Shown piece after piece: positions 9,930-45,257 of a DNA stretch of 64,000 nt. The position numbers were made by a program, and so were the translations under genes. The DNA is taken from the NCBI GenBank assembly GCA_905250025.1, contig CAJNOJ010000462.1:1-64000 (forward strand), read 5' to 3'. The stretch is from Adineta ricciae. Its lineage: Eukaryota; Rotifera; Eurotatoria; Adinetida; Adinetidae. How positions within the stretch are numbered: position 1 is the stretch's first letter; each line of letters begins with the position of its first letter. The notes below the pieces were generated by a model that was not told the DNA's origin, did not search any database, and saw only the letters and a program-made list of their open reading frames with translations.

Positions 9930-10154
9930 ATGCAGAAGCCTACTGGAATGGCTACCACTACGGCTATACATTACTATAATGTCAGTGCACAAATGCACAA
10001 TTGGGTCAATCAATATAATACACAAGATCCTTATCCTATTCATGCTGGAGTGCGCTCGTTTCAAATATTATCTGCAATAGGCAATGAAAACCGTTTAGTC
10101 TATAACGGATGGAAAATACTGTTCCCAGCACGAATGGTATTTCATGGATATTAA
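9930..10154 (+). CDS. Small unnamed-family protein, copy 1 (MQKPTGM type), diverged C-terminus
   Basis: A 74-codon frame beginning MQKPTGMATTTAIHYYNVSA. It shares with three other genes in this window the start M-(Q/H)-K-P-x-G-M, the following aromatic/Val-Ala-Ala-Gln-Met segment (here NVSAQMHNWV), and the Asn-rich stretch after it. The last ~25 residues do not align with the family end (R-x-[LF]-x-[FI]-[LF]-D), so a frameshift near 10090-10100 is likely. It has no signal peptide, membrane segment or cysteine. Function unknown. Confidence 0.5.
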   Translation: MQKPTGMATTTAIHYYNVSAQMHNWVNQYNTQDPYPIHAGVRSFQILSAIGNENRLVYNGWKILFPARMVFHGY

Positions 10155-11898
10155 TAATCATGTTCAGTGATCTTTGTTATGTGTTCTTTGACTTTTCTTT
10201 GCACAGCGTGTTTTATATGAATGTAATGAACGAGCTTGAGAGTGTGACCACTTGGTATCAAAAGTGAAAAAAATAAACAATAAAATTTAGTGTTCATAGA
10301 AACGTAAGAGAACCTATTCATTGTTGGTGAGTGGAGTGTCGACTGAAAGATCTGTTTTATTAACATTTATCGAAAGGGAATATCAAATTCGAAAAGCCAT
10401 TATTTGCAAGCTATAAAAACTCAAAGTATAATTCGAACCAATTTTAGTTGGTATCGTTTGATTGAGGAAGTCAGGAGAAATTCATGCATCATCAAAACAG
10501 AATTGAAAACTATCGTATGGCGATAATATACCTTCTATTCCAATTACAGCACTGTGAATGATGCATCGTCGAGAGAAAAGTAGCCATTTTGATTATTCAA
10601 ACTACAAATCACCATCACGCGTTTGAATAATGCAATAAAATTGAATGCGTAGAAAGTATAAGGTTGAACAGAAACGTTGCTAAGGTTATAAACTATAGTA
10701 GTCATGTTTACAGTGCGGACATGTAATAAATAGCCTAGAATTAAATAGCGCACATTTGATATATTAGAGAAAGTTACACAAATAGATTACTGGATTGTGA
10801 GCAACTGTTTACCTGAACACAAATCAAAGGAACTCCACCTTGATCGCATTCAAAATCAGATTGACATGATGTGCCAGCCTGTTTTTTATTTAAATGCATT
10901 TCTCCACTCCAATACGTATGTAGTGGACATGAACATAACTTATTGTCACAAAGGAGATAGTGATTAAGATAACAAGAACTTCAAGTTTTATTATAGCGCA
11001 GGTACTAATTCCGATAAAAATCTGTTTCAACCGAATAGCGAAATGAGAGAATAAACAGACCAAAAAGCATCTTTCGAAAGAATCCACAAAAGATGAAATG
11101 CTTGAACACGACAGAATCGAAAGTGTCAGACATAAACATATGCACTCTATTGTCATTATTCACGATATGTAGTCCATTAATTTCCCTAATATTTACCGTG
11201 ATTCTATGTACTCATCTTCATATGAAATTAATTGGCATAGCGTGCCTCTTCTCTTCTACTGTCATGCAGTTAACTTCAAAATTTGTAAATAACTGTAATT
11301 ATTTTGTTAATAGTTTAGTGTATATCTTTGTTTTGATTTGCGAACAAAAGAAAGTCATTTTGATCTGTAGTTACAAAGATATCATATCAGATGATGTAAC
11401 GAATAAATTGATTTGCTATTTTCACAAATTATAGATTGTTTTCCTCGAATAATTACACAAAAAAAAAGTCCGAATAAATATTTCACAGTTACGAAATTTT
11501 CTCGTGAATGAGTCATTTGGAAGTTTCAGCATAGTAAACGGTCATGATTAAACGAATATTATACCTGTCTGTCTATTTCGGTATATTTCAACTTTACCTT
11601 TTACATTCAATCGGAGATTATTTCGTTTGTGTTAGTCATCACATATCAACAGCAAAGTCACGATTTACGAAAGTTATGAAAGAGAAAAACATAACTAAAA
11701 ACCATTTTTTTGCATGCTATCAATGTACAAAATGAGTAAGAACGACACTTATTTCCGCGTTGATTGGAAATTACACATGATCAATAGCTAAAATCATTTT
11801 TCCCCTTACTACCGCTCTTCCTATAAAATCGAGTATATTTTCCCATTAGCTTATACATTTTTCTTTCAACGATCGTTACTATTAGGAGAAATTCAAAA
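10155..11898. other. Long intergenic stretch
   Basis: About 1.7 kb with only short ORFs in several frames (longest ~113 codons, low-complexity and without motifs). I see no gene that I can defend. Upstream of 11899 there is TATA-like sequence (about 11822-11835) and a pyrimidine-rich CTATTAG acceptor-like site. Confidence 0.45.
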
Positions 11899-12162
11899 AT
11901 GCACAAGCCTACTGGTATGGGTACCTACACGGCTGGCCGATATCACGCAGTGGCTGCTCAAATGCATGATTTTGTAAGGCAAAATAATCCACAAAGTCTT
12001 CATCCTGCTCAGGGTGGAATGCATCAATTTCATGCGCCGTCTGGTATGGCCAACGGAACTCGGCCAAGCTATGGTCATCAAGCAGCACCAAATCCACGTG
12101 TATTCGGAGGTCATCCTCCTGGCTTTGGACACGCATTCATACGACACTTTATTTTTGATTGA
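11899..12162 (+). CDS. Small unnamed-family protein, copy 2 (MHKPTGM type)
   Basis: An intact 87-codon frame: MHKPTGMGTYTAGRYHAVAA at the start, AQMHDFVRQNNPQSLHPAQG next, a Gly/Pro/His-rich centre, and an end of FIRHFIFD before the stop. Aligning it with the copies at 18054 and 44991 gives the same length (87-88), start motif, central GGM-x-x-F, xANxTR and a hydrophobic C-terminal D. Shared length and both conserved ends across diverged copies argue for a real protein. No known domain is recognised. An acceptor-like TTACTATTAG lies 16 bp upstream, so a 5'-UTR intron is possible. Confidence 0.6.
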   Translation: MHKPTGMGTYTAGRYHAVAAQMHDFVRQNNPQSLHPAQGGMHQFHAPSGMANGTRPSYGHQAAPNPRVFGGHPPGFGHAFIRHFIFD

Positions 12163-13310
12163 GGGGCTAAATATGAACAAAGAATGTGTTTTTGTTTTCT
12201 TTAACGATGTCAGCAGAAAAGAAGATTGCGCTTCGTCTCTTCTTTGTGTATTTATCGCTCGAATTATGAGCATCTGAATCGTTGACAGTTTAGCTTTCTG
12301 TTTAATAAACTTTTACAAACGTTCCATTGTTTCTTTACAACACTATTTCAACCAGCAAAATAAGTGCTTGCATGAAGAATGTATTTTCGCTACCTTCAAT
12401 TTTAGTTGCACCGGTGTTTTTTTCTAACGAAAATTTTCAACCATTTGGGCAGAGATGAATGATTCATTCTCGGAAGGGAAATATATGATATTTTCTTGTT
12501 CCTTTCTTTCGTTTTGTATCTTGCTTGAAAAACTAAGGTGCAACGTGATGCATACGAAAAACATACAGTCTGTGTCTATACTCTTCCTCGTTATATTTCA
12601 TCAGATAAGAATAGTTTTAGTACAGGTTGTTTAACATAGTGTGATGAATCATCAACAAAAGTATGCTTGTCACGAAGAAAATCAAGGAACAGCGATAACA
12701 AAATGATGCGTAAAGGGAAAGCAAAAGGCTTTATGTAAAGTATGGTGATATTTTCAGTGATTCACGTGGAAAAAAACACAAATTTGGAACATCTTCCTAT
12801 AACGACATTTTCCAGAAAATATTTGATTATCACTATTGTTTCCATGCTTACAAAGGGTTTTCAATTTTAACCGTCAATTTCGCTCTCCTCTCCTCTCTCT
12901 TTCAATTGACTTTCTCTCGTTACAATCAAGACATAATTCGACCTGACCTACAACGGATTCGCGTTCTCTAAATAGGAAACTTTCTTATTTTCCGACCCTA
13001 TTACACACGATACATCTCCAAACACATCTTCTTGACGAAATTCTACCAGAATCGTTAGAGAATGTTGGTCGCCAATCACAATATTTACCACATCTTTCCA
13101 CATTGAGTATTCTCACTTCCAGTGGCCCAAAGAACGCTGATATTTATCTACAAATATTTCTTTTATCATCATCACGATATTTTCATCTTGTAATTATAAT
13201 CGCCCGCATTGCGAAGATATCACATAGAACAACCAATGAATACAGTCCAATTGAACACTTAATCACTATAGATTTCATGTCTATTTACTAATTAAATTTT
13301 CCTAAGTTCA
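12163..13310. other. Intergenic
   Basis: No supported gene. A CTCTCCTCTCCTCTCTCTTTC pyrimidine tract (about 12882-12903) is the only notable feature. Confidence 0.45.
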
Positions 13311-14350: not shown

Positions 14351-17300
14351 ATGAAATACTTCATTCTGACGATATTAAGTGGCAAAATATCGAGTAAGTT
14401 TTGAGGGAATTTTACTAAGTTGGGTAGACCGGTGGACGTTAACAGATGAAAATGATGTTTTTTGAATCTTTAGCGTTACTGATATTACCACGTGAAGCTT
14501 CTTGGGATGAAAATGGAACTACTGTCGCAGGATTGTCAAATGGTACATCTGGATTATCTCTCATTGAGCTTCATCAGCCGTTTGGAATAACTATCACAAA
14601 TGACGACGTTCTTTACATTAGTGACATAGCGAATCATCGTGTCCTTGTTGTTCACCTTGACTCTACTAGAGACAATTATGCAATCGGTGATGGGTCTGAA
14701 CCTAATCAATATGAATTTTATTTTACATACGACGTTTTTATCTTTAATAAATCTCTTTATGTTCTGGACCACGGAAACAGGAAAGTAAAAGAGATGTCAC
14801 TGAATGGTTCCAATCCGACTCTTGTGCCTTATGTGAAGGACTTAGTTACGCCAATATGCCTTTTCATAGATAATGATGGTAACATATATGTGAGTGATCA
14901 AGGTGTTCATAAAGTGTTTGTCTTTCGACCGAGTGCGGTACCTGGAGAAACAGTTGCTGGTAATGGAACTGAAGGGTTCACCGATAAACAACTCAATCAA
15001 CCGTATGGAGTATTTGTAAATGATTTTAAAGCTATCTATATTGCAGACCGCAATAATCATCGAATCATGAAATGGTTGCCTAGAGCATCGTTTGGCATCC
15101 GCGTGGCTGGTAATGGAGCACCTGGCAATAGTTTAGAACAAGTGAATTCGCCAACTGACGTTATCGTTGATCAAAATGAATATATGTATATCAGTGAATC
15201 CGGTAACTCTCGAATAACACGATGGGGTCCTCATTCGACATGTGGTATATGCATCGCTGGTTGTATAGGAAAGTCTGGAGTTCAAGCAAACCAACTCATG
15301 AGTCCTCATGCAATAGCATTTGATCGACATGGTTCACTTTACGTTAGTGACCACGGAGCTCATCGAGTACAACGATTCCAACTACTTAATTATCCTGGTA
15401 AGTGTTCAGATTATGTAGTTCCCAAGACGCTTTAATAAAAGAAGTTCTTTCAAAATTCTTCACGTGCGTTGAAAAAAATCGATTTTTTTTTAAAGTATCT
15501 AGGACGAGTGATAACAGAATAACTTTGATCTTTGTTCTCTAATGCTTTCTTGAAATGTGTTGAATATCTAAAAGTATTTACTTCATATGTAGTTCCCTAC
15601 AATCAACCGAAACTCTCGTCGGAACCCACATGGAGTGAATGCGGTATTACCCTTACCAACAAAAGTAGTTTTGATTCAGTAGCTCGCGGCCTTTTCATCG
15701 ATTCAAATGACGCCATTTATCTAGCTGATCATTCCAGAAAACGAATTATCACCTGGTCTAAACACAGTGTTCATCCAGAACGAGAATTAGCCGCGCATTT
15801 GTTTAAATATACCAGTGTATTTGTGACATGGAACGGTGATATCTATTTTGAGAATGGTACAGCACAAGGTCGCATTGATAAGTTTCCTTCAAACTCAGAA
15901 AACAGTGAATTTGTTGCAAACTTCTCATCAAATTGCTATGATATCTTTATTGACATTCAAAATACCCTCTACTGTTCGATGCATGAAGAACATAGAGTAG
16001 TGAAAGTATCTCTCTCTGATGATAATCGTTCAGTGATAACAATAGCAGGAACAGGTTCATCAGGATCACGATTACATGAATTAAAAGGACCGTGGGGAAT
16101 ATTTATTGATATTCATTTCAATTTATATGTGGCTGATGAACCAAATCATCGAATTCTACTATTTCAACGAGGACAACTGAATGGAACTATAGCAGCTGGG
16201 AGTGGCATTCCAAACGGCTTAATATTATGTTGGCCCACCTATGTCATATTAGATGGAAATGGTTTTCTGTACGTTGCAGATAATAAACATAATCGCATCA
16301 TTCAAGTGCAAAACAACGCATTTCAATGCATTGCTGGTTGCACAAAAGAATCAGGATCGGCATCGAATCAACTTCATTGGGCGTATGCTCTTCGTTTCGA
16401 TAGTTTTGGAAATTTATATGTAGCTGATGAATCTAATCACCGCATTCAAAAATTTAGTATTGGAACAAATTTGTGTAGTATGTCTTTCCGTCGTTAGGGA
16501 TTATCTCGGTTCCTATTTTAATTACATCTATCATTTATTTCTTGTAGTATCAACTTCTCTTTCGACCACTGAATCACCTACAATCTATGTATCTCAAACA
16601 TCGGAAAACAGTATATCCAGTAATTAAATTTGTTTTCAATCCAATTTACAGATAATTTGTGTTTAAGATCAATTGACAACAAAAGACAAATCACTTTTAT
16701 TGACATCAAAATATCCAAGTATAATGTTCAAAGCATAGTTTCTTTATTTATAACAATTTTTGTTTTTTAGGCAACTCAACATCGTTTTTTGTAATCACAC
16801 ATTCATGTGGTGATACAACAAATATTGGTCAGCGTTGCAATACATCTGGTACTATTTGCCATATGCAACGTCCATGTTTAAACAATGGCACATGCACTGA
16901 TCTGAACAATAATCAAAATTATCATTGTTCATGTCCACTTGGCTTCTTTGGTAAACGATGCGAAATAGATCGACGTCCTTGTAAACGAAATACCTGTCTC
17001 AACAACGGTAAATTCTCTTCTTCTTTGTCTATGTATGAAAGCAATATTTTGTTTGTAGGTATCTGTAATAAGACATCGAATACGACCTATAATTGTACAT
17101 GTTCATTTGGTTACGAAGGAACGAGATGTGGAAGAAAGATTAATTATTGTTGGACTGTGACATGTCATAACAGAGGTGTTTGTCGTCCGTTGTTAGGTGG
17201 ATATAAATGTGAATGCCTTAGTGGAACACAGGGAGAACATTGTGAAGAAATTACAACGAAACTCCGTGTACATCGAATCGTATCGAAATCTTTTGCTTTC

Positions 17301-17474
17301 ATTGCAATTTTAGCAATGATAAGTGTTGTATTGTTTGTTATTATTATGGATATTCTCAAATACTTTTTTGCTATCGATCCAACACGACGTGAGATCGAAA
17401 GAATTCGGCGGGCAAAAAAACGTCGACCGGTTATTCAACGATTCGTCTATGTCAATGCGAAACCCCTATCTTGA
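14351..17474 (+). CDS. NHL-propeller / EGF / single-pass membrane protein, six exons
   Basis: Proposed exons: 14351-14393, 14474-15397, 15593-16474, 16548-16619, 16771-17007 and 17059-17474. Every junction is GT-AG with matching phase; total 857 residues. Exon 1 encodes a short hydrophobic leader (MKYFILTILSGKIS) ending at a perfect GTAAGT donor. Exons 2 and 3 each hold about six NHL blades (pattern P-x-G-(I/V)-x-V-D..LY-(V/I)-(A/S)-D..NHRI), i.e. two propellers. Exon 4 is a short Ser/Thr linker. Exons 5-6 hold three EGF modules (CLNNGTC..CSCPLGFFGKRC; CLNNGIC..CTCSFGYEGTRC; CHNRGVC..CECLSGTQGEHC), then one membrane span (AFIAILAMISVVLFVIIMDI) and a basic tail. It is predicted to be a type I surface protein. 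The last intron is 51 bp and has no stop in frame, so retention would insert 17 residues into the second EGF module. The start exon is the least certain part. Confidence 0.8.
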
Positions 17475-18053
17475 GGGTTAGAATAGCAAACAAGTAAACA
17501 TTTTTGCTGAAAGTAATTGATCGCTTAGTGTATGTATAATTCGAGTTTTATTGAAATAAACACTATTATTCGAAAACTTCGGAGCAGAAGTATTCCGACT
17601 TTTTCGAAGGTAAATATATCGATGTTCCATCTTCACTGTCGTTTGCATAATTACGAGTACAACTTGCATCATGACATTTTATCGCATGGAAACACGGAAA
17701 ATGTGAAACGCATTTATCATACAGTCGAGGAAAACTGTTTTGCTTCATCAAAAATCATTGGTAGGGTCGTAGTCAATGATGATTTTGTTGCGACATCATG
17801 TATGACGCCTGTAAAATACGAAAAAAAAACGGCCGGAACCTGTTTATGTCACATCATCATCCACGCTCGTCGTAAACAAAACTGGAAAAATCGTAACAAC
17901 CATCATCACTTCCACGTTAATTGCAAATTACCTTTAATAAATTGATAAACATAGTAGTTTCTGTATATATTTCACTGTTGGCAATCACAGTTACTCTTTA
18001 GTTGATATTTTAACATTTCAGGGGAGGCCTACAGACGAAAGAGATTCGAAAAA
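17475..18053. other. Conserved spacer with ORFs on both strands
   Basis: A plus-strand frame (17532-17945) and an overlapping minus-strand Cys-rich frame (17566-17751, CVSHFPCFHAIKCHDASC) are both open, and both are kept in copy 2. Substitutions between the copies change residues in both frames, so neither is clearly the coding one. A pyrimidine-AG acceptor (..ACATTTCAG, ~18014-18022) precedes the small gene and suggests a 5'-UTR intron ends here. Confidence 0.3.
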
Positions 18054-18320
18054 ATGCAGAAGCCTAGTGGAATGAGTAAGTATACAGTTGAACGGTATTT
18101 CAATGTTGCTGCGCAGATGTATGCATGGATTGAAGACAACAATCCGCCAGTTCTTCGTACTGCTTACGGTGGAATGCAACTATTTCAACTGCCGCCTGCC
18201 GTAGCTAACGAAACTCGTCACGACAACGATGATCTCCCAATCGTAAATCCACATCCATTCGAACCACATGATCCACTCAGCTTCTGTTATTTTCTTTTGA
18301 GACAATTATTTCTGGATTGA
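18054..18320 (+). CDS. Small unnamed-family protein, copy 3 (MQKPSGM type)
   Basis: An 88-codon frame: MQKPSGMSKYTVERYFNVAA, then QMYAWIEDNNPPVLRTAYGG, MQLFQLPP, VANETRHDNDDLP, a Pro/His segment, and an end of FLLRQLFLD. It is almost identical to the copy at 44991; differences are few and conservative (Ser/Asn at position 5, Met/Val, Ala/Val, Ser/Thr), while the frame and length are kept. It has no signal peptide or cysteines before the C-terminal Phe-Cys, and a hydrophobic end. Function unknown. Confidence 0.65.
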   Translation: MQKPSGMSKYTVERYFNVAAQMYAWIEDNNPPVLRTAYGGMQLFQLPPAVANETRHDNDDLPIVNPHPFEPHDPLSFCYFLLRQLFLD

Positions 18321-19068
18321 AGTGTAAAAATAGAATTTGTTTTTTTTTATTGTGGAGATGTGTACGCCCCTCTACAGTAGAGGGCGCACTCGAACATTGT
18401 TTAATAGTATGCATGTAACTATTTTCGTTCTTCCCGTGTTGAATCATTGGTGTTTTATGTATGTTGAATAAAGAAGAAAACAAACAGTTTTTTTTAATGT
18501 ACATTGTACTTTCGAATAAAATCATCTTTTCTTTCATATACCACAAACTTAATCAACATTTGTGACTTTGTCAAGGAATAAATTACCTTTTAGTCAGTAT
18601 ATACAGTACAGAGATACTTTCACTGAAGATATTTGTCAGAAAAGACGTTTTGGAAATGTCTGCTTGACTAATTTAGTCACTAGTGAATGTTTTTCTAATC
18701 GAAATCAGTTATTTTATTAGACGTATCCACCAAGACGACAGTATACTCTGTATACAAAGCGTACAAAACAAACATTTTGTCTCATATCTTGATTATCATA
18801 CCACCCAATAGAATATTTTAATTGATATGTTCGCTGAAAGATTTTGAACGATAAATACAATTTAATTAATTAAAATGAATATGAAATAGTTATATGACTG
18901 AAAAGAGACGAAGATAAAAATAATTGACAATTCAACAAAACTGATCACCAATCAAATGTCGCAATATAAGAAATTCCAAATAAACGATGTTTCATTCTAA
19001 TCACATTGAGCAAAAGATTCGATTTTGCGTTATATGCATCTTGATAATAAACCTTAAATATAGGTGCA
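18321..19068. other. Intergenic (tail of duplication A)
   Basis: Holds a T-rich run, the 17-bp inverted repeat at 18368-18384, AATAAA-like sites near 18466-18474, and AT-rich sequence. No gene. Confidence 0.5.
18368..18384. repeat. Perfect short inverted repeat, kept in both copies of segment A
   Basis: CCCTCTAC-A-GTAGAGGG: 8-bp arms around one base. The same sequence is at 45306-45322, about 50 bp after the small-family gene's stop in each copy. It could form a small hairpin in the transcript's 3' UTR or be a binding site. Confidence 0.6.
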
Positions 19069-28110: not shown

Positions 28111-30350
28111 ATTTTGTATCTAAATGATAGAAAAAAATGAAATTAATAAATCATAAATATCGACGGTAAACTATTGAGAGTTAGCAACAGTATATGAAAT
28201 GTTGGAGAGAATTGAAAACAGGATGGTCCATGTTTTCATGCCTAATTGCCCCCTAAAACTAAATTTTACTCTTAGTCCGCGTGCTACACAGTAACTTTAC
28301 TTTTATAGATAAAATTTGTTGTGTAAATGTAAACTCATCGTACGCATATGAATTTTTTCATTCTTTTAAGGTATTTATTTTATCCAGAAAATCCCAAACA
28401 CAGCAGGTTCTTTTAATAAATATGAAAACCTTCTTTAGAGATGTTGAAGCTGAAATTCACTGAAAACACGAGTGGATTCTGCTCATCCTTGAACTGTAGC
28501 AAAAATTTCAGAACGATCAAATGCATCCCTCAGAAATTCTTGTCTGAACAGATGAGCTATCTTCACCAATTGCAGAAATCAGACATTTGTACACATATAC
28601 TTATCGACATCGTTGTCGTGATATGCCAGCATGCTGCAAAAAAATCTACGCGTGATTTCAAAACTCTGATGACGATTTGATTTGAGAAGAGTTTATAAAA
28701 TGTGATAAATGAAGAGATAAACAGAATTATACTTTCAGCAGCCATGATCCTTTAGAATTCTAATAAAAAAATCTGAATTCTGCAGTCCCTCAATCTTCTA
28801 AATGAAGCAATAATTATCAGTATAGAAAGTTTACCTGATGTTTTGATTAATTTTCAGCTTATTTCAAATAATTTAAATAGGCCACCAAAAACGAGTTTTC
28901 TTTCCACCAGAAGCACCGCAATCAAGTTCGAATAATTTGATAAATAATTGATTTCGATAGAAATCTGAAAACCAAAGAATATGCACATACCATCTGTTTC
29001 TTTTTGTAGGAAATCTTTTCGTTTATGGGGTTTTATCTATTACGAAGAAGCTAATAGGCTTTTACTCATATTCTTTTTATTAAACATTTACTAGAACCAA
29101 TTGTTTCATAAAAAACATGAAATAATCTAGTAGAATATTCGCTCACTTTATCGTCTTTGCAAAGAAACCGTGATAGCTCAACACGAAATCTACTTACAAA
29201 ATTTCTAGACTTTTTTCTATGTACTACGATGTTTATATAAGTGAAAGAATTAAGGTAAGAAAAATATCGATAGGCGTTTACATGGGTCTCTACCATCCCT
29301 ATATGAAGTATTTCCTATCAACGTGGTAGAAACCCGATGGAGACACTGACTGATAACGTCGTAAAAGAGAAAGAGAAAGAGAAAAGGAACGATGTGTATT
29401 TTTATGTTTGGTCGTGATAAGAAGAGCCACTTGTTATTGGTATATTACAGTGTATGTATATGTAGATAGGCGTTTAAAGCACATGTATTCTACAATACCA
29501 ACCAGGATTGATAAAAGGAAAAAGCCAACAAAATATGTGGGGAAAATGATGTAGAGATAAAGAAATCACGCGTTTTGGTAAACCGACAATTAACGAAAAA
29601 CGTTTCTATGCATCGACAAAATTTCTTATTTATAGAATAACGATTGTGGCGCCGTTGACTGTTTACAACCTGGCTTGGTAACAACTATTCTCAGTTATAC
29701 AGGAAAATATAGGACCGTGAAAACAGCAATTTTTTACGACTTCAACCAAAGTAAAGGAAGTGTATAGAATCTTTTTTTAAGAAATAGTCCATGAGTGGCT
29801 CAAGCATAATAATACTCTAAAAAATGTGACCCCATCCCTCCTTTTTTATCATTGCAAATGAAAAAGCATCATCGAAAACTACTACACCAATTTCCAGCTC
29901 ATTGGGACTTACCTTTCAAGTGTTATGAACCTCACACTGAGCAACGATTGACAACGTGAAACAAATCACGTAGGATATCCAGAACGAGTAATCCGGGATC
30001 CTTTCGGAAACCCTACTGAATCTGATGAATTCCAGCAGAAATCCGACAGGATTCCTGTTGGGAATCGCCGGAATTCTTGGTGCAGAAATCTAACCGGCAG
30101 TGGTCAGATGTCAGATCCGATAGTCCGAAAACTCCGAAACCGATAGAATCCAGTAGGTTTTTCACAGGTTTTCTTGAGGATGTGGATGTGGGTGGAATTG
30201 AAAAACTTTGTGATTAAAATCGATAGAGCTCATCGAGTTCTACTTGGACTCAGTATGGTCAGAGTTGGAACGCACTCTTGTACGAATGGGTTCCAGAAAA
30301 AGTCGAATCCTGGAGCCGAGGTACCCTACGTAACAAATAAAGATAGTTTT
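28111..30350. other. Gene-poor stretch
   Basis: About 2.2 kb without a supported gene. It contains a short GAGAAA microsatellite (~29366-29386) and, from ~29990 to 30160, sequence rich in CCGGAAT/AATCC words that resembles the hairpin region at 30600-30810 and may belong to the same repeat. Confidence 0.45.
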
Positions 30351-30353
30351 CGT

Positions 30354-31244: not shown

Positions 31245-31419
31245 ATCTTTGAAACGAAGTGACAAGAGCAGCATTATCTTCACCGATAGTAACATGCTTT
31301 CGATGGCGTTTCCTGTTAATGATTGAAATAAATTCTAATCATTACTGGAATCGTATGACTTTATTCCAAGTAGCAATTCACATCTTCACTCATCCCCCCT
31401 CATCATCATCATCCCTAAT

Positions 31420-34330: not shown

Positions 34331-35340
34331 GATTACTCATCTAATAGCCATGACTCCTTGCTGTAGCGATTACCATCAGACTTTGCAGCATGAGCCTAGA
34401 GTTACTGGAGGATTCAAGTGGGAGGAGTGGACTGAAAATATGAACGCATTACTAGAATTGGTTCATGTCCTCCATCTATTTACACGTCAGCTCTAGAAAG
34501 GTCAATGTGATTGACGTGAAGTTGTTGATAGTCTATTAAAACATCAAAATCTAGCTGGAGTTCGAAAATGAGACCGATTAGAAGATCGATTCATGGATTA
34601 TTAAAAAAGGAACTGATATTTCTCTATGATTCGTTGTCTTCTATCTGATATACTTTCTGCAGTACGCATAATTCCCTTTTGGTAGATGGAATAACAGAAT
34701 AATTGGTCTTTGTTCGCAAAAGATGAAACGCGTCAGGAAAGTTCTGCTCACCTACTCACTTTCATCAAGGAGAAAAAAATTACAGTGATTATTTATGTAA
34801 CAAATATTTGAATATGGTTAATCTTTTTTTATCTACTTGCCTAAATAATGTTTATGACGTCAATTTAAATCTATTAAAAAATATTCTAACAAATGAACAG
34901 CACCATGCTTATCTCTAACATTCAAAATTTCTTTTTTCATATCTTACAAATATATATCTAAAAATCATCGAACCATGAGTTTTATTTTCGATTATTCTTC
35001 TCGATTTTTACAAAAGTTTTCAGGAATGACATTAGTTTTTTCGTTAACTAATAACAAATGCGTTAATATTGAAATCTCAGTGCGAAGTTAGCACCATTCG
35101 ATGCAGAATCAAATTCTGCGTCAGATGGACTTATATTCACAGACGAGAATTCATTTGAACATAAGGTTTTGTATGAATTTTTTCTGGTGCTATCTGAATG
35201 GTGGTGACTTCACATCGATTTGAAATCTGATCACTATCAAATCGGAACAAATGAGTTTAATGAATTGACGTCATAGAATAATAAAATTATTCATAAAAAT
35301 ATGCGATCCTTTCATCTGTATTGTTTCATAAAAGCCAATC
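34331..35340. other. Intergenic, then upstream part of duplicated unit B
   Basis: No gene. From ~34690 the sequence is nearly the same as that upstream of the second GPCR copy, including an inverted-repeat region (listed). Confidence 0.55.
35082..35213. promoter_or_regulatory. Inverted-repeat region upstream of GPCR copy 1, conserved in copy 2
   Basis: Arms 35082-35099 and 35196-35213 pair at 15 of 18 positions, and inside lies a perfect 7-bp-arm palindrome (GCAGAAT-CAA-ATTCTGC, 35103-35119). The block ends ~130 bp before the ATG and is kept almost unchanged upstream of copy 2 (around 48525-48660). It could be a regulatory element or an old MITE. Confidence 0.4.
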
Positions 35341-38300
35341 ATGTTTTATATAAAATATATCTTCTATTCGACTTTTCTATGCTGTGTCAAAACTCAGCTT
35401 CAAGTAAATCTTTATTTTGCCGATCAGGTTAGTGTCGACCAATTCGACGAGATAGGTATCCGATATAATTGTCTACGACTTGTTGGAACTGTGGAAAGCC
35501 GAAGAATAAATCGAGATATTGTATCATTTTGTATGAGTGAATTATCATCGAAATTCTCTGTTAAAACTGATAATTCGATGGAAAAATTTTATTTTGATGA
35601 TCTTGTGGAAAAACATATCACAAGTCAACAGTTATATGAATGGTCAGTGCCAATTGATACAATTGAACAGTATGAATATTATTTAGAATCAAATGATTCA
35701 TCTTGGCAAAAACAACCTGTTTACATTTGTACATTACCAAGATTCGGACCTGTGTGTCAGTACCAATTTTATTATGATGTTGGAGAGTATGGAATATTTT
35801 CTGATCTAGTTCATTATTATAGATCTGATAATAAATTTATTAGCGATATGACTTGTTTTACTCATTTGAAATGTAATCGCAGTTGTTTGCCAGTATGTTT
35901 AGATTGGTCAGAAATTTGTGATGGTGTAGTTCACTGTCTCGATGGAAATTTTGATGAAGAACATTGTTGGCAACTTGAATTGAATCAGTGTGAACAAAAT
36001 GAATATCAGTGTACCATGGGGCAATGTATACCGATTGAATTTGTTAATGATGGTATGAGCAGTTATGAATGTCTTGACGGCTCTGATGAAGCACGCGATC
36101 GTTATACTGTATATAATGGCTTTCTTACTGAGCTGGAGTATAGTGGCGATCTGGAAGATTTAAGATGCGCAACTACATTTTTAACAAGTAGCTGTGATTC
36201 CAATCGTACGTGGGAACTCATTGACGCTATGTTTTCAATACAAGACAGTTCTATACCGGAAGAATGCTGGTTCGCTTTTAGACACTATTTAGAAGCTAAT
36301 TACTTTGGTGATGCAAAAAGATATATACCTGCTATAAGAAAAGAATGTCCAGATGCACTGTATTTTCCCAATGTTCCAGTATTCTTTGGCCATGTTTTTA
36401 CAGCTTATAAAAAAAATGATGTGTTAAATTCAAACCAGTTCGCCGTACCTTATTTATGTTCAAATAAATCTTTTCATGATGGTTCAGTTAAACTAGCTTC
36501 AGATATGTCATTAAACAATCTAACGTGTTTTGTCTTCCCTCGACCTATAATTGATACCATGATCCACATAGTTCCGAAAGGATATACCTATTTGAAGATC
36601 ATGATGAGTATTTTCGATCAAATAAAAAACTTCAATCCAATAATATATTATTCTTCGAACCAATGTCATACATTCAATTTATATCAATGTATCAACTCGT
36701 CGAAATATATTGGATTTCGACGTGTTGGCAACAATATACACGATTGTCCATATGGTGATGATGAAAGCATATTGAACGACGCGAATTATCCGTTATTTGT
36801 TCGATTAAACGATAAGTTAAGTGATTTCTACTACATGGGCCTAAGCTTTCCACAAGAAGATCTTTTCAACAGAAAATATGGCTGTAGGTTCGATGATGAC
36901 TTTTGCGATGATACAGATCATGACAGTAATTTGACTCAAAGAATGATATCGTTCCCGATACTGTGTGATGGCTTCAAGACCTTATATCCAATAACAATCG
37001 ACGGACAAAACCATACGGATGAAACTGAATGCGAACAAGGAGAGTGTGATACTTTATATACTCATTGTGATGGAGCATGGAATTGTTGGGATGGAAGAGA
37101 TGAAATGGATTGTAATCAACCATCAACTACGCTTGATTGTTCCCCGGGAACACGAATATGTGTCACATTAGATACACTTAATGTTACATGTTTACCACTT
37201 AATAAAATTAATGATGGTCAAGTTGATTGCTTTGGTGGAACCGATGAACGAAGGATATGCCGCCGTAAAATTTTCATATATGGGTATGACGGATTTTATT
37301 GTACAAACAGCAAACCACCAGTTTGTTTGATCAGCTATAATTTCTGCAATAACGTAACGGAGTGTCCAAATGGAGAGGATGAACAATTTTGTTCACAAAA
37401 TCAATCAATCTCAGTCGTAGATGATACGTTTCAATCGAATTCTGTTTTACTGCGCCCTGATGTACAGAATTTTTTTCGACTCTTCTTCACCATAGGTCAT
37501 TATGACGTAGGAGCTCAATATTTTAGAATTCCTGGTTTCGTTAGACCAGAGCTAATCATAGAAGGGAATGCATTTACTGCAAGTTATACTGCTCGAGCTT
37601 CACTACTTGATGAACGACGTTGTCATCGTGGTCTTGATTTACGTGTTTGGCTAAATGAGTCATTGTACGGATATACAAGTACGTGTCTTTGCCTACCCGG
37701 CTATTATGGTAATCAATGTCAATATCAAAATGAACGTATAAGTTTAGTAATACGATTCAATGTTGCAACTGAATCATGGCAAATTCCATTTACGATATTA
37801 GCTTTATTGATTGATGATACAAATCAACGAGTTATTCATTCTTATGAACAATTCACTTACTTATCGGTACGAGATTGTCAAGTTAAATTTGATTTTCATT
37901 TATTTTATTCAACTCGACCAAAAGATATGAATAGAAATTATTCAATTCATATTGATATTTATGAAAAAAATTCTCTTCGTTACCGAGGAAGCTTTCTTTA
38001 TCCCGTGAAATTTTTATTTTTACCCGTTCATCGGTTAGCATTCATTATCAATGTTCCATCAGTCAGTGATTATTCTTGCTCAAATCAGCAATGTCGACAT
38101 GGAAAATGTATGAAATATGTCAATGAAGAAAAAACATTTTGTCAATGTGATGAAGGATGGTCCGGAGAGTATTGTCATGTTCAACATAATTGCACTTGTT
38201 CATCAAAAAAATCATTATGTATTGGTGTATTAGCTGATAATCGATCAATCTGTGTGTGTCAAGAGAACCGATTTGGTCCTCGTTGTTATCTTAAGAACCG

Positions 38301-40056
38301 AGTTTGCGAAAGTTTTCCATGTCTAAATAATGGTTCATGTATTCCAGGCGATGATTTTATGACTTCAGATGAAACAAAATATAGTTGTATATGTGAAAAA
38401 GGTTATAGTGGACGTCAATGCGAAGTAGATAGTAATCAAATTGATATTATATTCGATAATGACTTGCATATATCTCAATCAGTTTTTATTCATTTTATGA
38501 CGATAATTGGACCACCTAGTAACCTATTCACCGGAGCAGTAGATAAAAAAGTAGAGATATCAACAATATTACAAACGATATCTCAAGCAACGAATTCAAT
38601 CAGAGTTTATTGGTCACAACGATTTCATTTAACTTTTATTGAAACATTGGATAAGATCTTTTACGTAGGTACTCTTCAACCAAATTATATTCCTTCAACA
38701 AGAAGAACTCAACAGATTAATTCATCACATCGTTGTTCATCAATTAATGAATTGACAAATGAAACATTTGCTCAACTTCATGTTCTTCGTCGTATGAAAT
38801 ATTATCATGTAATTTGTCAACAACATTCTCCTCATTTACAATGTTTCCGTGATGATTTACACCTTTGTTTATGTTATGAGTTTTATGGAAAGCGCCTAGC
38901 AAATTGTGCTCCTTTTGACTATGAAATGAAATTTGATTGTTCTGGACAAAATGCTTGTGAAAATGGAGGTCGATGTTTTCAAGATTCACCTACATGTCCA
39001 ACACGAATTATTTGTGCTTGTCGTTCATGTTATTTTGGAACTCGTTGTCAGCATAGCACAAGTGAATTTGGTTTATCATTAGATGCTATCTTAGCATATC
39101 GTATTATTCCAAATGTTGATCTTATTGATCAAACAACAGTTGTTAAAATAAGTTTTTCATTAACAATTCTATTTTTTATCTTTGGGATAATCAATGGTAT
39201 GCTTTCGTTAATTACATTTAAAAGCAAAAATGTACGTGAAGTCGGTTGTGGAATCTATCTATTTGGTTCGTCCATAACAACAATATTAACAATGTTCATG
39301 TTTGCATCAAAATATTTTATTTATCTTTCGACACAAATGTCATCTTTATCGAATGAATCATTTCTTAAAATTCAATGTTATTTATTAGATTTTCTTCTTC
39401 GAATTTGTTTAAATATGGACCAATGGATAAATGCATGTGTTGCTTTAGAAAGAGCAGTAACTGTTATTCAAGGCGCTCAATTTAATAGAAAGAAAAGTAA
39501 AACATTAGCAAAGAAAATTATTTTTATTCTTTTAATTTTCAATATTTTAACATCAATTCACGATCCGATTTATCGTAAATTGACAGTAGAAGAAAATGAA
39601 AATAATGAACATAAAAGAATTTGGTGTGTTGTTAGTTATTCTTCAAATTTACAAATTTATAACCGCATTATAAACACACTTCATTTTTTTATTCCATTTC
39701 TAATTAACTTTATTTCATCGATTATTTTAATCACAAAAAAATCTCGTCAACAGTCTAATTTACATGAAAATCAACCCTATTCAGATGAATTGCGTAAACA
39801 ACTTCGAGAGCATCGACGTTTATTAATTGCGCCTGTTGTTTTATTTCTTCTTGCATTACCACGTTTGATTCTCTCTTATGTATCACAATGTATGAATTCA
39901 GCCCGAGATTCATCAATATTTATTAGTGGATACTTTATTTCATTTATTCCACCAATGATTACTTTTACGATTTTTGTTATTCCTTCAGAATTCTATAGAA
40001 AGGAATATCAAAATTCAATAGCACAATATCAACAACGTATTCGACGAATCCTATAG
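35341..40056 (+). CDS. LDLa/EGF-repeat adhesion-style GPCR, copy 1, intronless
   Basis: A 1,571-codon frame with no intron. A signal peptide (MFYIKYIFYSTFLCCV) opens it. LDLa-like modules lie at ~170-255 (CLDWSEICDGVVHCLDGNFD..C, then CTMGQCIPIEF..CLDGSDE), ~441-480, ~569-645 (CDGAWNCWDGRDEMDC) and ~653-683 (CNNVTECPNGEDEQFC). EGF modules are at ~781, ~913-948 (CRHGKC..CQCDEGWSGEYC), ~951-1030 and ~1199-1240 (CENGGRC..CYFGTRC). From ~1267 there are seven hydrophobic spans with rhodopsin-like traits: ACVALERAVTV at the end of TM3 in place of DRY, and a basic third loop. No GPS autoproteolysis motif is seen. It is predicted to be a surface receptor with a large ligand-binding ectodomain; ligand unknown. 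Such LDLa/EGF rhodopsin-type receptors are common in rotifers (family knowledge). Confidence 0.85.
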   Translation: MFYIKYIFYSTFLCCVKTQLQVNLYFADQVSVDQFDEIGIRYNCLRLVGTVESRRINRDIVSFCMSELSSKFSVKTDNSMEKFYFDDLVEKHITSQQLYEWSVPIDTIEQYEYYLESNDSSWQKQPVYICTLPRFGPVCQYQFYYDVGEYGIFSDLVHYYRSDNKFISDMTCFTHLKCNRSCLPVCLDWSEICDGVVHCLDGNFDEEHCWQLELNQCEQNEYQCTMGQCIPIEFVNDGMSSYECLDGSDEARDRYTVYNGFLTELEYSGDLEDLRCATTFLTSSCDSNRTWELIDAMFSIQDSSIPEECWFAFRHYLEANYFGDAKRYIPAIRKECPDALYFPNVPVFFGHVFTAYKKNDVLNSNQFAVPYLCSNKSFHDGSVKLASDMSLNNLTCFVFPRPIIDTMIHIVPKGYTYLKIMMSIFDQIKNFNPIIYYSSNQCHTFNLYQCINSSKYIGFRRVGNNIHDCPYGDDESILNDANYPLFVRLNDKLSDFYYMGLSFPQEDLFNRKYGCRFDDDFCDDTDHDSNLTQRMISFPILCDGFKTLYPITIDGQNHTDETECEQGECDTLYTHCDGAWNCWDGRDEMDCNQPSTTLDCSPGTRICVTLDTLNVTCLPLNKINDGQVDCFGGTDERRICRRKIFIYGYDGFYCTNSKPPVCLISYNFCNNVTECPNGEDEQFCSQNQSISVVDDTFQSNSVLLRPDVQNFFRLFFTIGHYDVGAQYFRIPGFVRPELIIEGNAFTASYTARASLLDERRCHRGLDLRVWLNESLYGYTSTCLCLPGYYGNQCQYQNERISLVIRFNVATESWQIPFTILALLIDDTNQRVIHSYEQFTYLSVRDCQVKFDFHLFYSTRPKDMNRNYSIHIDIYEKNSLRYRGSFLYPVKFLFLPVHRLAFIINVPSVSDYSCSNQQCRHGKCMKYVNEEKTFCQCDEGWSGEYCHVQHNCTCSSKKSLCIGVLADNRSICVCQENRFGPRCYLKNRVCESFPCLNNGSCIPGDDFMTSDETKYSCICEKGYSGRQCEVDSNQIDIIFDNDLHISQSVFIHFMTIIGPPSNLFTGAVDKKVEISTILQTISQATNSIRVYWSQRFHLTFIETLDKIFYVGTLQPNYIPSTRRTQQINSSHRCSSINELTNETFAQLHVLRRMKYYHVICQQHSPHLQCFRDDLHLCLCYEFYGKRLANCAPFDYEMKFDCSGQNACENGGRCFQDSPTCPTRIICACRSCYFGTRCQHSTSEFGLSLDAILAYRIIPNVDLIDQTTVVKISFSLTILFFIFGIINGMLSLITFKSKNVREVGCGIYLFGSSITTILTMFMFASKYFIYLSTQMSSLSNESFLKIQCYLLDFLLRICLNMDQWINACVALERAVTVIQGAQFNRKKSKTLAKKIIFILLIFNILTSIHDPIYRKLTVEENENNEHKRIWCVVSYSSNLQIYNRIINTLHFFIPFLINFISSIILITKKSRQQSNLHENQPYSDELRKQLREHRRLLIAPVVLFLLALPRLILSYVSQCMNSARDSSIFISGYFISFIPPMITFTIFVIPSEFYRKEYQNSIAQYQQRIRRIL

Positions 40057-40572
40057 CTGTCTAAAAATGGCGAAATACATTGAACTTCTTCTGAAATCGG
40101 CTGGGATAAATCGTTTTTTCGCTTTGCTTTTGAATGCGCCTCATGTTTTTGCAAATTGATTTTATGCTTCTGCATTGAGAATATATTAAAGGTGACGGTA
40201 TGAGTGACATATCCATCGTTCCTATCCTCATCTTTAGAAAGTTGTGAGTATGAATACTAATGAGAAGATGTGGTTTTAACTGTTCACAAGATCTTCTCTT
40301 ATAACCAAATTGTGTCAGTGATGTGCCAACACAAATGTCATATCTTTTCAGCTGAAAATATCTTCAACAACTGTGTACTGTTCAGAACTTTTCTCTTCGA
40401 GAATTTCGGTTCCAATTTCATTTAATGTTGAACTGATCATCAACTAGATATAGTGAATAAATCGAAGTGCATTTGGAATGAATGAGGTTTCACACATTGT
40501 AAAAGAACTTCTTCATGAGAAAATCCTCAGTGTGACATCATCATAAAGAGTACTGCAGAGCTCATCGGTCGT
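40057..40572. other. 3' flank of GPCR copy 1
   Basis: No ORF. Includes the block missing from copy 2, flanked by AGAACTT words. Confidence 0.5.
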
Positions 40573-40868
40573 TCGAAAGGGCACATAGTCTTCGTTGGGT
40601 GAAAATATTTTCTATACTCGGCGAAAACGGCATTTATATACCGTTTGAAAATGTCTGTTCAATACTTCCACGTCAATTACGAATGTTGGAAATAGGCATC
40701 CGCAACGTTGAACAAATCGGAACACTTCTACACAATTGTCAGACACGATGCGGCAAAAAAGAGTCAAACAATCGGTTCGATTTATTGAGACGGAGCGGAA
40801 GAATGAATGTTCAATGTGCAGAGAGTGAAAACGAGATCAAACGCATGAAAGCTGACTCGCCATCATGA
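40573..40868 (+). pseudogene. F-box gene C-terminal relic (unit B, copy 1)
   Basis: Reads FENVCSILPRQLRMLEIGIR, NVEQIGTLLHNCQ, then SGRMNVQCAESENEIKRMKA, matching the last part of F-box exon 2 (FEGICSILPRQLQHLDINIV...VKKRMKIDSSS). About 35 residues in the middle are deleted, and the rest of the gene is absent. It retains an 89-codon frame from 40599 but has no F-box. Confidence 0.6.
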
Positions 40869-41040
40869 TCTGCTTACAAAACGCAATGAGATTTTTAATA
40901 GACATCAATAGTAACATGACTTTGATGTGTTTGTCTTTCTTGTCAAGTATGAAATCTTTCGTCCTATGATCAACTCATAGAAGAAGCTTTAACAACGTCA
41001 TTTTAACATTCTCAAGAATGAACAGCTAGATTTCGGTCAA

Positions 41041-41657
41041 TTAAAATAGTGATTTAGGTCGATTCTTGAGATATTCGGCAATTCGAGGATGTTTTTCCAC
41101 TTCTGTACGATTTTGCTTTAGCCATGGATGATTGTTCAATATGTGTTCGTCTACTCCGAGAAGAGTTTCGCCAAATGTGTGAAAGAATAGATCGGCCCAG
41201 GTCAGCTGATTGTTCACAAAGTATTCACCACTATGTCCATATAATTTACCAAGAATTTCAAGATTTTGTAAATGTTTTGGTAATTGTTCCACAAAGAAGT
41301 TTTTTGTCAATTCTTGTTTTTTCGATTCGTCTTGCTCCTGCGAAATGGGTGAATATGCTTTCATGATATCATAGATTGTATCTACGACAGCATCGGCTTC
41401 TGCTTGTTCGAAATCGTCTTTGCCAGCGAGATGAAATTTTTTAGCAAGAAAACGACCAATTGCTGCTGATTGTGGTAGTTGAACGCCATCGACTTCAAGA
41501 ACAGGCATTTGACCTAAAGGCATCTGACTCTTGTGAGTTGGCCATTCATCGCGTTCAAAACGAATATCTTCATACTTTTGGTCAGCAGCAAGAAAATCAA
41601 GCGCGATACTTCAGCAACACCACGTACATTAAAATAGTAAAGCTTGTAAGTCGACAT
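41041..41657 (-). pseudogene. Sigma-class glutathione S-transferase, copy 1, frameshifted
   Basis: It aligns end to end with the intact 205-residue copy at 54375-54992, but a run of four A (41593-41596) stands where copy 2 has five (54927-54931). That loses one base in codon ~23 and splits the frame: the N-terminal 22 residues (from the ATG at 41657) and residues ~46-205 (from an internal Met at 41523). The remaining residues are otherwise well kept, so the lesion is recent or a sequencing error. Without the thioredoxin-fold N-terminus (catalytic Tyr near position 8) the shorter frame could not bind glutathione. Confidence 0.75.
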
Positions 41658-41933
41658 ATTTGAAAACTAGTCAAGATAAGAATAACACAGACACGTGCTG
41701 TGTGAGTACAGGTATTTATATGCGAGGAAAAAAGAACGATAACATACATCTTTTTGCCTCGTCGTTATTATCCAATAGCAGTTAGTCACATGCGTTTGTC
41801 CGTATATGACGTGGTGCAACAGAATAAAAGAAAATAATGATATGATTTGTAGTTTCAGCTAAATTTTGTCTGATGAAAAATTCCTTCTAATGCTAGGATA
41901 ATATTATTTACGTAAAACACAATTTCCTATAGG

Positions 41934-42543: not shown

Positions 42544-44191
42544 ATGGATGCATTGCCAGTAGAGGTACTACATCGTGTTTTTGATTTTCTCGATGCACAA
42601 ACAGTCCTACTCTCAGTACGAGTGCTGTCGCGATCCTTTCGGTCAATGGTCAACTCATACAATCGATACTCAGTGAACTTCACAGCTCTTTCGCAACAAC
42701 ATTTTCGTCTTCTCTGTCGACTGATAAATCCACAACAGGTCATCTCATTAACGCTTACGAATGAGTACGATGGATTAAATGAAATTGATTTATTTCTATC
42801 AAATGTTCGGCATCTTCAATCGTTCACTCGACTTCAAAATTTAGTGCTTGAGAATATCAATGAAAATCAATTCGATTCTTTGCTGAAATATGCCAATCTG
42901 ACTTTCATTACATCGTTCAGCATGAGTATCAAACATCCAGGAAGACGAATTGCCCAGGTCACGGAAAAATTACTTACATCAATCATCACACAACCAGGAC
43001 TTCGTCAATTACGTCTTTCATTGTCGTATCTCAACGTATTACGAACTGGCTATGGTACTGTTTCCATGGTTCGATACTTATTTGTTCGTCACTGGAACAA
43101 GATAAACGATCTATATGAAATATTTCAGTCTTGCCCTCATTTACATACAGTTGTTCTCCAAGAAGATCTCGGTCGACTTGATTTCAATGGTGTGCGAGAA
43201 TTCAAACCACGGAGTGCTTTTCATCAAATACGATCTCTAACTCTTGAGGAGTTTATGGAAGATATCGAAATACTTGAATTAGTTCTAGCAATGGTTCCTT
43301 CATTGAATCACTTGACTATTATTGGTCCTTACTCAAATTTGAACCTTGATGGTCACCGTTGGCAGCATCTCCTGGAAATAAATCTACCTCAATTAAAGAG
43401 ATTTGAGTTCTTTCTCCGGCCCATCTGCATTGATAAAAGAACGTTAGACGAACTCGAGACGTTCAATACTACATTTCAAACACCATTTTGGATCGAACAG
43501 AAACAATGGTTCATTATAGTTGAATATCGAACTAAATCCTTATCTAACATTCGCATTTACACCATACCATTATGTACACGTGAACTCGTTTGCGACCTAG
43601 AATTCACTCAACTGCCTTCACTGGCAACAACAATGAGAACAGAACACAATAATGTTAAGAGAATAAGTGTAGAACTAGACGAATCTATTGATGTTAGTGC
43701 TGAGAGACAAGTATGTAGATTTGATTGTAACTCGCTTCGATCTTACGTCATTATTCTTAGGAAATATTTAATAACTATCGTTTTAGCAAAATTACTGATC
43801 TAACACTTGTTTTTTATTCATCATGGTCTGGATCATTATTGCCATTAACCTTGATGGCTATTGATATTACAAATATGGTGTATATGACATTAGCTTACCA
43901 TTGTAAAAAGTCAGTTAGTGAAGATGTCTTGAAATTAGTATGTTCTTGGTTGGAACAAGCACAAAATCTTCGCTGTTTGGAAATCTATGGAGAATTTTTG
44001 GAGTTCGTAACAAGTTCGCAGCTTGAAAGTATTCTTTCGATACTTCAACATCGACTGCAATGTTTAGAAATAAGGATTAAGCATTTAGATCAGATGAAAA
44101 TATTTCTTGAACGTTGTGACAATTTGTCAAGACTAAAGTTTCATTTCGACAAAAATATCAGTAAAGAAATCAAGCAATGGTTTAATGATAA
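42544..44191 (+). CDS. F-box / LRR-like protein, copy 2, truncated at an assembly N
   Basis: Exon 1 is 42544-43710, the intron 43711-43760 (50 bp, phase 0, same place as in copy 1), and exon 2 runs from 43761 to the N at 44192. F-box LPVEVLHRVFDFLDAQT..LSRSFRSMVNSY lies at residues ~4-45, then LRR-like repeats with the family blocks QTPFWIEQKQWFIIV and IRIYTIPLCT. It is perhaps half identical to copy 1 by eye. The last ~35 residues (after KQWFND) are missing because the sequence switches at the N to unrelated EGF-gene sequence. The truncation is therefore probably an assembly join rather than biology. Expected role: substrate receptor of an SCF ubiquitin ligase. Confidence 0.75.
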
Positions 44192-44192
44192 N
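44192..44192. other. Single undetermined base at a sequence junction
   Basis: The N splits two exons that do not belong together: F-box exon 2 on the left, the last exon of an NHL-EGF gene copy on the right. Confidence 0.85.
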
Positions 44193-44413
44193 CAACGAAA
44201 CTCCGTGTACATCGAATCGTATCGAAATCTTTTGCTTTCATTGCAATTTTAGCAATGATAAGTGTTGTATTGTTTGTTATTATTATGGATATTCTCAAAT
44301 ACTTTTTTGCTATTGATCCAACACGACGTGGGATCGAAAGAATTCGGCGGGCAAAAAAACATCGACCGGATATTCAACGATTCGTCTATATCAATGTCAA
44401 ACCCCAATCTTGA
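44193..44413 (+). pseudogene. 3' fragment of an NHL-EGF membrane gene
   Basis: Encodes only the membrane span and basic tail (KLRVHRIVSKSFAFIAILAM...FVYINVKPQS, stop at 44411) of a paralogue of the gene at 14351-17474. Substitutions such as RREIERI to RRGIERI are mild. The propellers and EGF modules are absent because of the N junction, so the full gene may exist elsewhere in the genome. Confidence 0.7.
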
Positions 44414-44990
44414 GGGTGTGAATGCAAACAGGTAAACATTTTTGCTGAAAGTAATTGACCGCTTAGTGTATGTATAATTCAAGTTTTACTGAAATAAACA
44501 CTATTATTCGAAAACTTTGGAGCAGAAGTATTCCGACTTTTTCGAAGGTAAATATATCGATGTTCCATCTTCACTGTCGTTTGCATCATCACAAGCACAA
44601 CTTGCATCATAACATTTTATCGCATGGAAACACGGAAAATGTGAAACGCATCTGTCATACGGTCGAGGAAAACTGTTTTGCTTCATCAAAAATCACTGGT
44701 AGAGTCGTAGTCAATGATGATTTTGTTGCGACATCATGTATGACGCCTGTAAAATACGAAAAAAACTGCCGGAACCTGTTTATGTCACATCATCATCCGC
44801 GCTTGTCGTAAACAAAACTGGAAAAAATCGCAACAGCCATCATCACTTCCACGTTAATTGCAAATTACTTTTGATAAATTGATAAACATAGTAGTTTCTG
44901 TATATATTTTACTGTTGGCAATCATAGTTACTCTTTAGTTGGAATTTTAACATTTCAGAGGAGGCCTAAAGACGAAAGAGATTTGAAAAA
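44414..44990. other. Spacer, copy of 17475-18053
   Basis: Same two-strand ORF ambiguity as in copy 1. An acceptor-like AACATTTCAG precedes the small gene. Confidence 0.3.
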
Positions 44991-45257
44991 ATGCAGAAGC
45001 CTAATGGAATGAGTAAGTATACAGTTGAACGTTATTTCAATGTCGCTGCGCAGATGTATGCATGGATTGAAGACAACAATCCGCCAGTTCTTCGTACCGC
45101 TTACGGCGGAGTGCAACTGTTTCAACTGCCGCCTGTCGTGGCTAACGAAACTCGCCACGACAACGATGATCTCCCAATTGTAAATCCACATCCATTCGAA
45201 CCACATGATCCGCTCACCTTCTGTTATTTTCTTTTGAGACAATTATTTCTGGATTGA
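44991..45257 (+). CDS. Small unnamed-family protein, copy 4 (MQKPNGM type)
   Basis: An 88-codon frame, near-identical to the one at 18054: MQKPNGMSKYTVERYFNVAA, QMYAWIEDNNPPVLRTAYGG, VQLFQLPPVVANETRHDNDD, and an end of FLLRQLFLD. Most nucleotide differences from copy 3 are silent or conservative (for example GTT/GTC, GCT/GCC, CGT/CGC at third positions), which supports coding. Confidence 0.65.
   Translation: MQKPNGMSKYTVERYFNVAAQMYAWIEDNNPPVLRTAYGGVQLFQLPPVVANETRHDNDDLPIVNPHPFEPHDPLTFCYFLLRQLFLD

Follow-up and report, generated by a model that had tools for sequence, protein, structure and literature searches.

A family of small single-exon proteins, apparently undescribed, in the genome of the rotifer Adineta ricciae

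Family members in the window and in the genome

The window analysed here is a stretch of 64,000 nucleotides, i.e., positions 1 to 64,000 of contig CAJNOJ010000462.1 (C462), in the 130 Mb genome of the rotifer Adineta ricciae, which comprises 1033 contigs. Four genes for small, similar proteins lie in this window. Each was confirmed as a frame from ATG to stop at the position where an initial annotation, made from the sequence alone, had placed it.

9930..10154, + strand: family member 1, 74 amino acids (aa), without the C-terminal helix, on the longest branch among the four
11899..12162, + strand: family member 2, 87 aa, full-length
18054..18320, + strand: family member 3, 88 aa
44991..45257, + strand: family member 4, 88 aa, a near-duplicate of member 3

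Sequence comparison indicates that these genes are true members of a larger, apparently undescribed small-protein family. The initial annotation had counted four members, which was too few. By whole-genome search, at least 21 intact single-exon members were found on 10 contigs, i.e., four each on C462 and C266, two each on C755, C180, C269, C540, and C147, and one each on C9, C15, and C30; these counts are lower bounds. Homologs therefore exist well beyond the duplicated segments of the window, with 17 members on nine other contigs. The members fall into 12 lineages, composed of nine recent pairs (18 members) and three singletons, and both copies of a pair lie on one contig in six cases and on different contigs in three. 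The family is thus read as a multigene set of small (74-92 aa), single-exon proteins that are probably intracellular. A second local cluster besides that of the window is found at C266:91089-131157, where four members lie within 40 kb, two of them matched by the C755 pair.

The number of genome matches varied with the query, i.e., 12 for member 3, 20 for the C9 member, 19 for a C266 member, and 18 for a C147 member. A majority-consensus query gave 21 matches, all of them members, with a worst E-value of 8.5e-6. Within the window, member 3 found member 4 (E 1.2e-56), member 2 (E 9.3e-13), and member 1 (E 7.7e-7). The DNA pattern for the start, M-x-x-P-T-G-M-x-x-x-T, had 18 exact matches in the genome against none for the reversed pattern, and 17 of the 18 were family members. 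The remaining one (C21:339712) fits the start pattern, but its frame has 47 aa and is unlike the family, and it was taken as a chance match. The one-mismatch search gave 14 matches, of which four were members (the C269 pair and members 3 and 4); the reversed control at up to one mismatch gave eight. The 10 other matches were set aside: four with a start-like pattern gave translations of 12, 7, 39, and 117 aa that do not resemble the family, and six were left untranslated.

The features that had been described as common to the four window genes held completely at the start and partly elsewhere. The start M-(Q/H)-K-P-(T/S/N)-G-M is present in all four. The AAQM segment, GG(M/V)xxF, ANxTR, the hydrophobic end, and the common length of about 87 aa (87, 88, and 88 aa) are found in three of them. 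Member 1 is the exception, having SAQM, AGVRSF, and GNENR instead and ending before the C-terminal segment at 74 aa; it agrees with the others in its start and in the region of the N-terminal helix. Members 2 and 3 are strongly diverged in DNA, as had been observed, with a coding identity of 62.5% and lengths of 87 and 88 aa. Members 3 and 4 do differ chiefly at silent sites, with 9 synonymous and 4 nonsynonymous changes (synonymous divergence dS 0.181, nonsynonymous divergence dN 0.019). Inspection by eye of the four sequences agreed that neither a signal sequence nor a membrane segment is evident. In the tree, the four members cluster together with moderate support (93/91) and long branches, and probably form a local, fast-diverging clade.

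Selection was estimated by Nei-Gojobori counts in the nine recent pairs. The pooled changes were 61.5 synonymous over 497.7 sites and 53.5 nonsynonymous over 1824.3 sites, giving a dN/dS of 0.24; single pairs ranged from 0.02 to 0.69, with 0.11 for members 3 and 4. The ratio is not near 1, the value that the initial annotation had named as speaking against a real family. The 95% bootstrap interval over pairs was 0.14-0.36, and the synonymous excess had p-values from 9e-14 (kappa 1) to 2e-8 (kappa 6), the gapped C147 pair being trimmed to its first 65 codons in these tests. In the eight ungapped pairs, 21, 26, and 63 changes fell on codon positions 1, 2, and 3, i.e., 63 of 110 on the third. The tightest constraint lies on the N-terminal 30 codons, with a ratio of 0.14 compared with 0.28 and 0.31 elsewhere. 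The codons for the motif residues P, T, and G differ synonymously between members, which points to constraint acting on the protein. Because the pooled ratio is near 0.24 and that of members 3 and 4 is 0.11, the family proteins are considered to be kept by purifying selection. The frames are short and have a single exon, as non-coding or chance frames with fortuitous similarity would be, but such an origin is hardly credible; it is contradicted by the start pattern with its empty reversed control, by the E-values, and by the pooled ratio over nine pairs.

Coding DNA divergence within the pairs is 2-9%. For homologous copies within the A. ricciae genome, a median divergence of 4.6% is given in PMC5916493. 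By this resemblance, some pairs could represent homologous copies instead of duplicates.

The many dispersed copies would also fit a mobile-element or viral product that has spread through the genome. The flanks of the nine recent pairs were compared over 500 b on each side, and were 83-96% identical where aligned, while the genes were 92-98% identical. Since the flanks are nearly as identical as the genes, the gene was copied together with its surroundings, which speaks against such a product. In the C180 and C269 pairs, the downstream alignment within these 500 b was heavily gapped, as a mobile element might leave it. Members of different lineages have unrelated, host-type genes as neighbours: of seven adjacent frames scanned, five gave Pfam families (GH3, SSF, 7TM, Kelch, and LRR-kinase) and two gave none. 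Such unrelated neighbours argue against a mobile element and against a partner gene travelling with the family. Single-protein scans, which reach close relatives only, found no relative in viral contigs (two members) or in prokaryote contigs (one member). A mobile or viral origin is thus regarded as very improbable.

Protein features and known families

All 21 members start with M-x-x-P-(T/S/N)-G-M. M1, P4, G6, and M7 are invariant in all of them, and T5 and T11 are nearly so. Among the 12 lineage representatives, positions 15, 18, 22, and 26 are always hydrophobic, with alanine counted as hydrophobic, and positions 14, 21, and 27 are always polar, mostly H, Q, or N. By residue, Q21 is conserved in 10, N27 in 9, and N17 in 6 of the 12. 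No N-terminal hydrophobic signal sequence was seen in the 21 N-termini inspected by eye.

The predicted layout consists of an N-terminal helix at about residues 9-29 and a flexible linker, to which most lineages add a short helix at the C-terminus. In the AlphaFold model of member 3, helices were placed at 9-29 and 74-86, with a predicted local distance difference test score (pLDDT) below 50 at 35-68; the mean pLDDT was 52.2 and the predicted template modelling score (pTM) 0.27. The model of the C9 member has helices at 9-28 and 77-89 (mean pLDDT 54.8, pTM 0.25). The linker is predicted to be rich in His, Asn, Gln, and Ala with a semi-conserved HQFxP/GGMxxF patch, and the C-terminal helix to be FxRxFxRNLF-like in most lineages. 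This helix is missing in member 1, in the C266_126/C755_1 pair, and in the C540 pair, and is altered in the C147 pair.

C266_126 (L018:1501-1737; C266:126831) and C755_1 (L016:1501-1737; C755:1547) end at TGA after 78 codons. Family-like C-terminal sequence continues past one TGA codon in C266_126 and past two in C755_1. In this pair, the C-terminal helix was lost or, less likely, TGA is read through.

The 12 representatives (1025 residues) contain 15 Lys, 1 Cys, and 88 His. Seven other proteins of the window have 4.8% Lys, 3.8% Cys, and 2.6% His; because this control set is small and partly made up of cysteine-rich, extracellular-type proteins, the difference in Cys is exaggerated. His averages 9% over the 21 members and reaches 13-18% in six (the C147 pair, C266_123, C266_91, C266_130, and C755_5), as structural or metal-binding histidine-rich proteins might have it, e.g., in the intracellular skin layer that rotifers possess. 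Against this role, His is only 2-5.4% in C30, the C269 pair, the C266_126/C755_1 pair, and three of the window's four members, so it is not the core property of the family, and there is almost no cysteine. Such a structural or metal-binding role is therefore judged improbable.

No convincing family was found by domain search of all 21 members. The best Pfam match had an E-value of 0.014 in one member (a CEP152 coiled coil), PADLOC gave MTase_II at 0.021 in two, and NCBIfam, PHROGs, and the remaining model matches had E-values of at least 0.09, each in one or two members. The profile search of PDB gave two matches up to E 10, the best being the designed coiled coil sc-apCC-4 (8a3k) at 0.012. 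The likeness is an alternating hydrophobic helix pattern at profile positions of about 10-41, but sc-apCC-4 is an artificial protein and the resemblance is one of pattern only. As no single stretch was significant by itself, a relation was rejected and the match was taken as chance or pattern.

In the literature, judged on titles and abstract openings with subscription papers, preprints, and supplements mostly outside the scope, no recognizable description of the family was found. Nothing on the family appears in the available parts of PMC2861651 and PMC12220480. The constraint, the dispersed homologs, and the lack of a convincing database family support the earlier suggestion of an undescribed gene family.

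The nearest known systems in character are the late embryogenesis abundant (LEA) proteins and hydrophilins, which are small, cysteine-poor, low-complexity, largely unfolded proteins with possible amphipathic helices, induced by desiccation. Hydrophilins are defined by a mean hydrophilicity index above 1, i.e., a grand average of hydropathy (GRAVY) below about -1, and by more than 6% Gly. The present family is likewise small, cysteine-poor, low in complexity, and predicted to be largely unfolded with possible amphipathic helices. It differs in being lysine-poor, in being mostly insufficiently hydrophilic, and in having a fixed N-terminal motif, which LEA groups are not known to have. No LEA-type model was among the six Pfam families matched at E ≤ 1 by the 21 members, and hydrophilin-type GRAVY values, below -1, were found in two of 21 members only (the C147 pair).

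Upstream element and promoter-like signals

A composite element, ATGCTTNANTGC-N5-ATNACTCA, is clear in the upstream DNA (-97 to -143) of 14 of the 21 members, which make up seven of the 12 lineages; its long form is TATGCTTCACTGCTTNTCATNACTCA. The halves resemble, presumably, sites of the C/EBP and AP-1 types. The element was recovered by a one-strand motif search of the region from -200 to -20 in the 12 representatives, loosely as ATGCTTGATTGC. Its log-likelihood was 51.4, the weakest of four runs still reaching 50.2; 60 shuffles gave 35.4 +/- 2.6 and did not exceed 42.1. The 26-column search from -220 to -1 gave 110.2, the weakest of eight runs reaching 101.9; its shuffles gave 74.6 +/- 3.5 and did not exceed 86.1. 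The real data were given more runs than each shuffle, and the lowest real run was still above every shuffle. When both strands were searched, the motifs of 8 and 12 columns were pyrimidine runs, and the motif of 18 columns was a partial form of the element, present in some of the lineages and scoring 63.9 compared with 51.0-58.6 for eight shuffles.

With a leave-one-out matrix built from the other six lineages, the element site was the best on both strands of the locus of about 3.2 kb in seven of seven, these lineages having been chosen after the motif was seen. The element has a mean ungapped identity of 63% among the seven lineages. Outside it, upstream DNA to -500 has a mean identity of 45.7% (shuffles 44.8%), and the stretch from the element to ATG 48.5% (shuffles 51.7%). 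A retained ancestral element would look alike, but its persistence amid unalignable flanks argues for function.

Genome-wide, the degenerate pattern, derived from the family's own sites, matched 37 places with up to two mismatches, compared with 24 for the reversed control. Family members lie downstream of 10 of these 37 and of 7 of the 10 one-mismatch matches. Outside the family, the element is near background, as the remaining 27 matches compare with 24.

TATA-like sites lie between the element and ATG, at -58 to -89, in five of the seven element-bearing lineages; C180 has one at -15 only and C540 has none. These sites, like those given below for members 2 and 3, were counted without a chance control.

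-77 upstream of member 2: TATA-like CCTATAAAAT
17964..17971, + strand: TATA-like site upstream of member 3 (-90/-88)
142 b after the stop of member 2: poly(A)-type signal

The window's best match to the upstream element is at 28237-28262 (score 11.2, next 6.2), with no family member nearby.

Possible function and the surrounding DNA

It is tentatively proposed that the family consists of induced intracellular two-helix proteins that bind partners or membranes, perhaps LEA-like in action though not in membership. The element-bearing members would be switched on together, and the proteins would be largely unfolded when alone. The N-terminal motif and helix would dock on a common partner, protein or membrane, and a further contact would be determined by the linker and C-terminal helix, which are variable and lost in several lineages. 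As a tether with two helices, such a protein could stabilise or scaffold its clients in the way of small, disordered protectants or adaptors that are induced. The scarcity of Lys and Cys would fit selection to escape ubiquitination, glycation, and thiol oxidation, which is plausible in dormant cells, although this is speculation.

In the available part of PMC10809525, genes that are specific to bdelloids and unknown in function belong to the common response of Adineta vaga to desiccation and radiation, and a CCAAT/enhancer-type factor with very high expression is reported as well. The over-expressed genes are, like the present family, unannotated bdelloid genes and could include its orthologs; no such family is named in that text, the supplementary gene tables being outside the comparison. 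The genes and the factor fit the idea of induced proteins without testing it.

Several results weigh against the proposed induced two-helix proteins, and a stress role is conjectural. Both AlphaFold models are of low confidence, so the predicted helices are tentative, and the N-terminal hydrophobic moment was at least 2 standard deviations above shuffles in only seven of 21 members. FoldIndex is near zero, and positive in eight of 21 members, so strong disorder is not established. The members are not strongly hydrophilic, with a mean GRAVY of -0.69 (range -0.29 to -1.17). The pair C266_123/C266_91, at a dN/dS of 0.69, would not show constraint alone. As for the element, its leave-one-out margins over the next site are small in C9 (10.5 against 9.7) and C540 (4.9 against 3.7). 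In C30, the C269 pair, and the four window members, the upstream DNA contained no clear element. Co-regulation of the whole family is not established because these are five of the 12 lineages, the window's three included.

The same protein anatomy would also suit adaptor or regulatory microproteins, in which M-x-x-PTGM and the helix serve for docking on a single, specific protein and different partners are recruited by the variable rest, with no protective role. This explanation would account for three features: the strongest constraint lies on the first 30 codons, the polar residues beside the hydrophobic stripe (Q21, N27, and N17) are conserved beyond the generic needs of a membrane helix, and several lineages lack the C-terminal part or have it in altered form. 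Against it, no described docking domain was matched in the Pfam, NCBIfam, PHROGs/PADLOC, and PDB scans. Pure adaptors are considered nearly as likely as the protective reading, and the sequence would fit either. A bolder extension of the induced two-helix reading is that these are rotifer-specific proteins avoiding Lys and Cys, induced as a group via a private promoter element, and form a new class of dormancy or stress effectors, from whose control the window clade escaped to take a new role. This extension is speculative and rather improbable.

With its simple signature, evident constraint, and candidate promoter element, the family can be sought directly in existing rotifer RNA-seq data and genomes. 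If it is linked to stress, a protein class would be added to animal dormancy; if not, it would still show cleanly how a gene family diverges by duplication in a bdelloid-like genome.

Members 3 and 4 lie in a segment that is present twice in the window.

17254..18987, + strand: segment with member 3, recurring at 44193-45881; 93.5% identical over 1579 b and 92.1% over a further 139 b
44193..45881, + strand: second segment copy, with member 4, starting directly after a single N at 44192

The main part of 1.6 kb is 17254-18826 and 44193-45764, with 93.5% identity. The single N at 44192 marks the exact left edge of the second copy, where a gene judged by eye to be F-box-like ends. As the second copy starts right after it, this N is possibly an assembly join. 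In addition, a block of 7 kb is found twice in the same orientation, at 34687-41910 and 48109-55246, with about 92-93% identity. It contains a frame of 1571/1574 aa with an LDLa/EGF/7TM look (named by eye) and a GST-like gene. Together with the segments of members 3 and 4, this block points to a tandem duplication of large size or to homologous copies that were joined.

In the 3' flanks of members 3 and 4, at 18368-18387 and 45306-45325, a conserved palindrome, CCCTCTAC-A-GTAGAGGG, is followed by CGC. It resembles what we take to be a CTCF-type core. The Rfam search of 8000-46500 gave no match at gathering score. TGTGGG arrays of at least five units occur at six places in the genome, the reversed control being uninformative as a rotation of the same repeat. 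TGTGGG is reported as the telomeric hexamer of an Adineta rotifer, in a paper that also finds it to be frequent in a monogonont. At 60244-60969 of the window, there is a long low-complexity frame of V/D/E repeats, i.e., a simple DNA repeat that is unlikely to be a normal protein gene.

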